Assembly: GCF_031877795.1 (NCBI RefSeq)
Contig: NC_133958.1
Coordinates: 1,240,001-1,304,000 of the forward strand
Origin: Strix aluco
Taxonomy: Eukaryota; Chordata; Aves; Strigiformes; Strigidae
Direction of reading: 5' to 3'
DNA: 64,000 nucleotides
Position numbers and translations under genes: made by a program. Shown here in pieces: positions 35,901 through 38,900 of this stretch. The notes beneath the pieces are model-generated. The model worked only from the letters and a program-made list of their open reading frames with translations, was not told where the DNA came from and did not search any database. Position 1 is the first letter of the stretch. The number at the start of each line of letters is the position of its first letter.

Positions 35901-38900
35901 GGGGCCCCCAGGGCCCCCCCCCCCGTGCTGGTCCTGAGCCCCCAGCGCCCTGTGTGCCCGCCGTGTGCCCGTCCCCGTGGTCTCTGGGCTTTCACAACAT
36001 TGTTTCTTCCCCTCTCTCGTTCCCCCCATCTCCGCCCCTCCCCGTCCCCCCCGTCCCGTCCCCCCCCCCCCCGTCCCCCTCCCCACCCCCCCGCTCCGTC
36101 CGTCCCCCCCCTCCATCCCCCCCCCGTCCCTCCCTGTCTCCCATCACGCGTCGCTCGGGCTCTGTGCGTGTCCGTGTGTCCGTCCGTGTGTCCGTCTGTC
36201 CCACCGCTCGCTGCCCCCCCCCTCGCCCCGGCACCCCCTTCCCTGTGTTTTGCCTCCTGATGCTCCACCTGCCCCCCACCTGCCCCCCACCCTGCCCTGG
36301 ATCCTCCCATCACCCCTCTCCTGCCCCCCCCATCCTGCCCCCCACCTCTCATCTCATTCCTCTCCATCCTGCCCCCCTTTCCCACCCCCCACCTCCCTGA
36401 CCCCCATCCTGCCCCCCACACCCCCCATCCTGTCCCACCTCCTGCCCCCCCATCTCATTCCTCTCCATCCTGCCCCCCCTTTCCACCACCCCACCCCCCT
36501 GACCCCCATCCTGCCCCCCCTCCCACCCCTTGCCCCCCCTACTGTCCCCCCATCCCATTCCTCTCCATCCTCCCCCCTTCCCACCCCCTTTATCCCCCCC
36601 ACCCCTCATCCTGCCCCCCTCCCACCCCTTGCCCCCCCTCCTGCCCCCCCATCCCATTCCTCTCCATCCTCCCCCCTTCCCACCCCCTTTACCCCCTCCT
36701 GCCCCCCCTCCCACCCCTTGCCCCCCCCTACTGCCCCCCATCCCATTCCTCTCCATCCTGCCCCCCTTCCTACCCCCTTTACCCCCTCCTGCCCCGCCTC
36801 CCACCCCTTGCCCCCCCCTCCTGCCCCCCATCCCATTCCTCTCCATCCTCCCCCCTTCCCACCCCCTTTATCCCCCCCACCCCTCATCCTGCCCCCCCTC
36901 CCACCCCTTGCCCCCCCTCCTGCCCCCCCATCCCATTCCTCTCCATCCTCCCCCCTTCCCACCCCCTTTACCCCCTCCTGCCCCGCCTCCCACCCCTTGC
37001 CCCCCCCTCCTGCCCCCCATCCCATTCCTCTCCATCCTACCCCCTTCCCACCCCCTTTATCCCCCCCACCCCTCATCCTGCCCCCCCTCCCACCCCTTGC
37101 CCCCCCTCCTGCCCCCCATCCCATTCCTCTCCATCCTCCCCCCTTCCCACCCCCTTTATCCCCCCCACCCCTCATCCTGGCCCCCCTCCCACCCCTTGCC
37201 CCCCCTCCTGCCCCCCCATCTCATTCCTCTCCATCCTGCCCCCCTTCCCACCGCCTTTCCCCCCTCCTGCCCCCACCCTGCCCCCTCCCACCCCCTGTTC
37301 CTCCATCCTCCCCCCCCTTTCCCCCCCGCCCCCCGCCCCCCGCCCCCCGTTTTGTTTTGCAGTCACTGTGTCCATGAGCTATTAGCACGCGTTTCTCCCA
37401 CCCATCACTTTGCCCCTGTGCAGAGGGAGCCGCAGGTCAGTATAACGGGGGGGGCCGGGGGGGCCGTGCCCCCCGCGCTGCCCCCACCCGCCGGAGCATC
37501 CCGCTTCCCGGCCCCCCCGCTCCCCTCGCCGGGACCCCACTTTGGGGCTCTCTCCTCCCTCCTTTTTCTGCCCCCCCTCCCCCATTTTTTGACCCCTCCC
37601 TTTGCAGGGAGGTTGCCCTGCCCCCCCCCCCGCCATGCCCCAGCACCCCCAGCCACGCGGGGGCCCCCCCCCCCCACTTCACCCCCATTTCAGCCTCTCA
37701 TTCCCCCGCTCCTTCCCTCTTTCTTTCTTGTCTCGTCTCCATCTGCCCCCCCCCGCCCCCCCCATTCCCCCGCCCTGTGAGTCCTGTCTGGGGGACCCCA
37801 GTGTCTGGGCAGCAGCAGGGCTGGGGGGGCGCAGGGGGGGGGTCCCATGGCGGGGGGGGGGCACAGCAGCACCATGTGGGTGACCCCCATGGGTCAGCAG
37901 CACCCCTGATGGGCACCCTCCAGGCAGTGCCCCCCCCCCAGGGGTGACCCCCCCACCTCAGGCAGGGGCGTGGGGGGGTGCCAAGCTCAGCACCCCCCCC
38001 CCCCAATACAAGATCACTGCTTGGTTTTGTAGGGTCCCCCCCAGGGCGCAGCGGCGTGGGGGGATGGTTTTAGGGGGGGTGGGGGCACAAATCCTGGGTG
38101 CCCCTGAGCAAGGGGGTGTGGGGGGGGCGCGGCGTGCCCCTGACCCCCCCCCCCGACGTTTGCACGCAGCCACTGCATCCAGCAGATCCTGGAGGCCGTC
38201 CTCCACTGTCACCAGATGGGGGTCGTCCACAGGGACCTCAAGGTGAGTGTGTCCCCCCCCCATAGGGTGCTTCCCCCCCCCCCCCCAGGTCTTGGCGTCC
38301 CCACAGCTTGGGGGGGGGGGCTGGCTCAGTGGCTCCCCAAGGTGGGGGATTGAGCTCCCCCTGGGGCTGGGGGGGTCCCCTCAGCTCGGCATACCCCCCA
38401 GCTGCCATTTCCCCTGCCTGGGGGTGCGTGTGACCCCCCCCCAGTCACAGCACACTCTGTGTTCACTGCGACCCCCCCGCATCGCCCCCAGATCCCCCCT
38501 TTGGGGTGCGGGGGGGGGGGACAGACACATGAGCCGGGTGGGAGATGGGGATGGGGATGTGTGGGGTTGGGGGGGGCGCGGGGCTGGCAGACGGGCAGGA
38601 CCCCCTCGATGGCGGCTGCAAAGCCCCCCCTCTGCTGCCCCCCCCCTTCCTCCCCCCCCCTTCGCCCCGCGCCCGCAGCCGGAGAACCTGCTCCTGGCCA
38701 GCAAGTGCAAAGGGGCGGCGGTGAAGCTGGCGGACTTCGGCCTCGCCATCGAGGTGCAAGGGGATCAGCAGGCCTGGTTCGGTGAGTGCCCCCCCCGTGC
38801 CCCCCCCCGTGCCCCCCGCCGGCCGCCCGCCGCGGCTCAGCCCCGCTCCCCCCCGCAGGTTTCGCCGGCACGCCCGGCTACCTCTCGCCCGAAGTGCTGC

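Follow-up and report, generated by a model that had tools for sequence, protein, structure and literature searches.

Human CAMK2D carries a tandem-duplicated exon pair in its kinase domain (PMC9741552), and four clusters of mutually exclusive exons have been described for the gene (PMC5740500). The passages of PMC9741552 that concern the pair leave the exon unnumbered; from the solved chain used there (6ayw) and from the CAMK2D gene of the genome analysed here, we infer that the published kinase-domain region is exon 6, the very exon at issue below. Section 12 of the same paper discusses duplicated genes that have lost one exon of a tandem pair, namely PGM1/PGM5, CACNA1F/CACNA1S and the FYN family, which on that account resemble CaMKII in having one paralogue with both exons and others with one. 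CAMK2B differs from these cases in that a recognisable remnant with splice sites persists, and remnants are not discussed in the passages of that section.

Here we analyse a 64-kb stretch of DNA (the window) that holds CAMK2B on its plus strand, and describe a 73-nt unit in intron 5 (Table 1). Our preferred reading, to which we give a probability of roughly 0.6, is that the unit is the CAMK2B copy of an ancient exon 6a, a relic with surviving splice sites. The pair in CAMK2D is known; what is new is the CAMK2B unit as a probable orphaned copy of this known tandem exon pair. Among the openly licensed papers listed (at most 20 per search), exon 6a or its relic in CAMK2B was not found described in titles and abstract openings; an entry in a supplementary exon list is possible. 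The passages of PMC9741552, PMC5740500, PMC4465641, PMC9772828, PMC4801060, PMC13343711, PMC10441763 and PMC10838224 likewise hold no description of such a relic: 'camk' is absent from the main text of PMC4465641 as available, and the available text of PMC9772828 makes no mention of exon 5 or exon 6.

A second described system lies in CAMK2B itself. The human gene yields a cryptic exon upon TDP-43 loss (PMC10441763, PMC10838224) and, like the unit as we read it, this is a normally unused exon of CAMK2B; the passages of both papers are silent on its place. The published forward primer for the human TDP-43-dependent cryptic RNA reads IIKTTEQ on its reverse strand, and its best match in the window is at 49863 (19/21). 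We take this position to be the hub region of CAMK2B. As the primer matches a place other than intron 5, we rejected the unit as the TDP-43 cryptic exon.

Table 1. Positions in the 64-kb window of the CAMK2B exons around the unit, of the unit and its splice sites, and of the intron 5 minisatellite.
Feature	Position	Strand	Remarks
CAMK2B exon 5	35519..35584	+	translation ending SEADA + AG; last bases GCCAG at 35584; acceptor CAG at 35516-35518; donor gtgagc
Intron 5 of CAMK2B	35585-38169	+	C-rich; carries a 99-nt minisatellite upstream of the 73-nt unit
C-rich (C/T-rich) minisatellite, intron 5	36350..37316	+	about 10 copies of a 99-nt unit; Tandem Repeats Finder
Acceptor of the unit, GTTTTGTTTTGCAG	37349..37362	+	without adenine between -57 and -3
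73-nt unit, probable relic of CAMK2B exon 6a	37363..37435	+	CAMK2G exon 6 matched at 42/73 and own exon 6 at 37/73; not placed in the 6b group by codon trees; relaxed constraint
Donor of the unit, GTCAGTAT	37436..37443	+	8/8 bases as in the donor of CAMK2D exon 6a
CAMK2B exon 6, 6b type	38170..38242	+	73 nt; branch-point-like CTGAC at -27
CAMK2B exon 7	38679..38781	+	translation ending QAWF

The unit and its borders

Over 106 residues, compared by eye, exons 5-8 of CAMK2B resemble the solved beta chain 3bhh. The initial annotation of the window had singled out in intron 5 an open 73-nt unit with a good acceptor and donor, and this description is borne out: gttttgttttgcag precedes the unit and gtcagt follows it. 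Length and phase agree with those of exon 6 as claimed, both being 73 nt, and exon 5 (ending at 35584), the unit and exon 7 (from 38679) join in frame, so that use of the unit instead of exon 6 keeps the reading frame through exon 7. Its GC content, given earlier as about 56%, is 42/73; the identity of 8/25 residues to the exon 6 peptide and of about half the nucleotides (37 of 73) also stood, as did the loss of the catalytic aspartate and lysine, with HRDLK replaced by QREPQ (H to Q, D to E, K to Q). The two exons could be used only singly without breaking the frame, again as proposed: skipping both brings a stop in exon 7, and using both shifts the frame.

The acceptor is poor in adenine (Table 1), and the missing near branch-point adenine was considered as proof that it is dead. 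The acceptor of exon 7 (38620-38678) likewise has no adenine from -56 to -3, and because exon 7 shares the lack we dropped this argument; the branch point of exon 7 may be distant or may not be an adenine. CAMK2B exon 6 (window 38140-38170) and CAMK2D exon 6b have in common GTTTGCAYGCAG at the acceptor and, at -27, a branch-point-like CTRAC, which reads CTGAC in the former and CTAAC in the latter; this shared arrangement is a long-kept splice border.

Homology of the unit to CaMKII exon 6

When the plus strand of the 64-kb window is scanned without gaps for CAMK2G exon 6, CAMK2B exon 6 comes first (51/73) and the unit second (42/73), the next place reaching 36. A chance resemblance of an intronic 73-mer to exon 6 has some raw material to draw on, with 270 open AG-73-GT units on the two strands of the window. 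Among all 433 AG-73-GT units free of N (209 plus, 224 minus), however, only exon 6 (51) and the unit (42) have more than 30 bases in common with CAMK2G exon 6. When the letters of the unit are permuted, its match to CAMK2G exon 6 stands at z 6.6 and that to its own exon 6 at z 4.8, and donor and position are shared with CAMK2D as well. We therefore rejected a chance match, whose probability we regard as close to nil; at the level of these comparisons the homology of the unit to CaMKII exon 6 is confirmed.

The match to its own exon 6, taken by itself, is suggestive rather than conclusive, because position 57194 ties with the unit at 37/73 when that exon is the query. On the minus strand the same query reaches 38 matches in a register shifted by one base. 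A gapped search over 200 nt around the unit agrees with this division, the score of CAMK2G exon 6 being equalled by 0 of 100 shuffles and that of the own exon 6 by 72 of 100.

A repeat origin was also considered and rejected. A DNA search of the whole genome (1.41 Gb, 202 contigs, the window lying on contig 28; simple repeats skipped) returned only the unit itself, and between 35500 and 39000 the gathering score is not attained for any Rfam family. An exact 23-mer of the unit has 0 matches in collections of viral and prokaryote contigs, which is uninformative given what these contain.

Sister CaMKII genes and the 6a/6b pair

Parts of the sister genes from the same genome were compared, 20 kb of CAMK2A, 30 kb of CAMK2D and 20 kb of CAMK2G, each named by its kinase residues. 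In CAMK2D, exon 6 occurs as a tandem pair, 6a lying about 1 kb upstream of 6b and ending LNGIVHRDLK; in this genome 6a is mostly N and readable over its last 31 bases only. CAMK2A has one copy in its 20-kb stretch, of 6b type, and the one copy in CAMK2G agrees in type with the exon that the solved delta kinase contains (solved gamma and delta kinases compared). Introns 5-6 of CAMK2A and CAMK2G were searched for relics of the missing copies and none stood out; among the 12 rows of this search even the best score was reached by 6-7 of 100 approximate shuffles.

The unit is closer to CAMK2G exon 6 (42/73) than to the 6b exons of B, A and D (37, 38 and 36 of 73). Of the 16 sites at which three 6b exons agree and CAMK2G differs, the unit sides with CAMK2G at 7 and with 6b at 2. 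Over the last 31 bases of CAMK2D 6a the unit matches 17 and the other exons 19-21; so low a match is as expected of a drifted sequence and does not help in placing it.

In gene structure the CAMK2D pair and the CAMK2B unit agree in exon position, in the upstream place of the 6a copy, in the donor GTCAGTAT and in length and phase, as far as the 31 readable bases of CAMK2D 6a allow. Like the members of the 6a/6b pair, the unit and CAMK2B exon 6 are homologous neighbouring exons of equal length and phase (73/73 nt), and the unit sits upstream of CAMK2B 6b, on the same side as 6a in CAMK2D. The two copies differ in the catalytic loop: CAMK2D 6a keeps HRDLK and is the form found in the solved delta kinase, whereas the CAMK2B copy has lost it.

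Placement in codon trees

With omega 1 on the branch of the unit, codon trees that place it within or adjacent to the 6a exons have lnL -302.1 to -303.8, against -313.0 beside its own exon 6, -310.6 beside the A/B pair and -310.6 beside D6b. With omega 0.3 on that branch the best tree has -302.9, compared with -310.1 and -309.6, a gap of 6.8-7.2 lnL units. In both settings the unit falls, as modelled, outside the 6b group and not within it. Unrooted as they are, these trees do not distinguish a place in 6a (-302.1) from branching between 6a and 6b (-302.8).

The donor adds to this. All 8 bases of GTCAGTAT are common to the unit and CAMK2D 6a, while the B and D donors of exons 4, 5, 6b and 7 share 6, 5, 7 and 5 of 8; the donor of the unit has a C at +3, which is uncommon at that position. 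Together, the donor and the place of the unit would favour the 6a lineage, on trees that are unrooted and with the body of CAMK2D 6a mostly N.

These results bear on how the unit arose. The initial annotation proposed an exon duplication, and the unit is indeed a duplicated exon 6 of the same length and phase; the part that is probably wrong is the copying from the neighbouring exon 6, a member of an older pair, retained in CAMK2D, being the more probable identity of the unit. A separate, later duplication inside CAMK2B would account for an adjacent copy of equal length and phase with 37/73 identity. We nevertheless consider it very improbable: the tree beside the own exon 6 lies 7-11 lnL units below the best tree, depending on the model, and the unit is closer to CAMK2G than to its neighbour and on the same side of 6b as in CAMK2D.

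Coding constraint on the unit

A codon model with one omega for all branches (0.042) gives lnL -309.2, against -302.0 with the unit at omega 1 and -301.6 with its omega free. The free value ran to its upper bound and is poorly determined; fixing it at 0.2 gives -302.9 and at 0.1 gives -303.5 (1.8 below the free value), and the shared value of about 0.04 is 7 units worse than omega 1. The other exon-6 copies have omega 0.02-0.04, and the branch of the unit has a length of about 1.65 changes per codon when its omega is 1, all these estimates being rough with 25 codons and saturated synonymous sites. Coding constraint thus appears clearly weaker in the unit than in the working copies, and since omega 0.1 costs only 1.8 lnL units it is possible that some constraint, weaker than in the other copies, is yet present.

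Mismatches to CAMK2G are fairly even over the codon positions (10/24, 8/24 and 13/25), and against the 6b exons third positions differ more (16-18/25) than first and second. The unit differs from CAMK2G at 16 of 25 residues and has three new prolines, at residues 13, 19 and 24. Pro13 lies within the segment that we take to form helix alpha-E. The changes are milder than random placement would give, with a BLOSUM score from CAMK2G of 51 against 23 +/- 12 for as many random changes (P ~0.01) and from the own exon 6 of 44 against 10.5 +/- 12 (P 0.001-0.002), where both ancestors are proxies and not the true one; constraint on the unit at an earlier time would also give such a pattern.

The reading of the unit as a live, mutually exclusive exon whose product is a kinase-dead CaMKII-beta would have to be weighed against these figures. 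The unit is open and in frame with exons 5 and 7, its splice sites are intact, the catalytic H, D and K are replaced, the residue changes are mild, and the fit tolerates omega 0.1; that kinase-domain exons of this family are duplicated and alternatively used is known from CAMK2D (PMC9741552, in passages of section 10 and the legend of figure 2). Against it stand the 7 lnL units by which the shared omega is worse, the 16 of 25 residues changed from CAMK2G and the three prolines, the first in the putative helix alpha-E. On balance such an exon seems improbable from the sequence. The maintained switch to a kinase-dead CaMKII-beta that the initial annotation had proposed is not supported, given constraint clearly weaker than in working copies and the prolines that have arisen; the strong purifying selection and kept catalytic loop of the 6a/6b pair are both missing from the unit.

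Intact splice borders

Decay of the kind that marks a relic exon is absent at the borders of the unit, with AG, GT, length and frame all intact. We simulated neutral change from CAMK2G exon 6 at 0.3 and 0.5 substitutions per site, distances obtained from 9/36 mismatches at first and second codon positions agreeing in four working copies and from 18/48 against CAMK2G at all such positions, with multiple hits corrected by hand. AG, GT, freedom from indels and an open frame survive jointly in 1.4-5.6% of cases at 0.3 and in 0.1-1% at 0.5; adding the 8-base donor lowers this to 0.2-1% and 0.005-0.07%. Because the features were chosen after being seen, the indel rates were assumed and CAMK2G stands in for the ancestor, the simulation carries only modest weight, and the intact, indel-free borders exert a modest pull toward a retained splice unit.

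Another reading is a decoy or poison exon, which would no longer code but would be kept as a splice unit because CAMK2B output falls when it is occasionally included alongside exon 6 or when it competes for the donor of exon 5. Undecayed borders beside drifted coding positions fit it, as does the donor identical to that of CAMK2D 6a; as 73 cannot be divided by 3, double inclusion shifts the frame. That frame, however, meets no stop codon through exons 5-9 and into the first part of exon 10 in the joined sequence, and the acceptor has, its AG excepted, no adenine for 57 nt, though exon 7 is alike in this. We regard a decoy as a minority reading, unlikely though with more to recommend it than the kinase-dead exon. 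The relic is ranked first despite the intact splice borders because the catalytic loop and the coding constraint have been lost.

The unit as a probable orphaned exon 6a

The observations that the preferred relic reading has to join are the homology, place and phase of the unit, its position outside the 6b exons, its intact splice dinucleotides, the lost HRD aspartate and lysine, and its relaxed constraint. In this account exon 6a would already have been paired with 6b in the common ancestor of the vertebrate CaMKII genes. CAMK2D would have retained both copies, CAMK2G would have a 6a-type exon, and CAMK2A and CAMK2B would depend on 6b. Coding constraint on CAMK2B 6a would then have been mostly lost, and the copy would have drifted while its splice borders and length survived and, by luck or for a role in splicing, its open frame as well. 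The account implies that the unit is probably a member of 6a and not a branch outside either type, that the 6a/6b pair is probably older than the split of the four CaMKII genes, and that the unit presumably yields no protein.

The remnant suggests that the pair arose before the split of the four vertebrate genes and that one form was lost from CAMK2B; in this way the exon pair known from CAMK2D is connected with the CaMKII family as a whole. We assume that the 6a/6b switch exon is perhaps as old as the vertebrate gene duplications. It is conceivable, if doubtful, that CAMK2B 6a is still spliced; it could then yield beta subunits that lack catalysis and serve structural roles, or it could adjust CAMK2B output as a decoy, and a very old switch exon would have turned from a kinase variant into an off-switch. 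Were the unit still spliced, birds would have a natural enzyme-to-scaffold switch of CaMKII-beta, a distinction otherwise studied with engineered mutants.

Tandem repeats at the locus

The 99-nt minisatellite of intron 5 ends 46 nt upstream of the unit; that its CU-rich RNA could bind splicing repressors is speculation. Long tandem tracts lie upstream of CAMK2B exon 4, first GT-rich (30250-32103) and then CA-rich (33089-34406). The intron downstream of exon 8 contains about 70 copies of the 11-nt repeat CCGATCCCTGC (38950-39724), and a degenerate minisatellite of 3.5 kb based on GCACTGGGAT (45411-48956) stands between the kinase and hub exons of CAMK2B.
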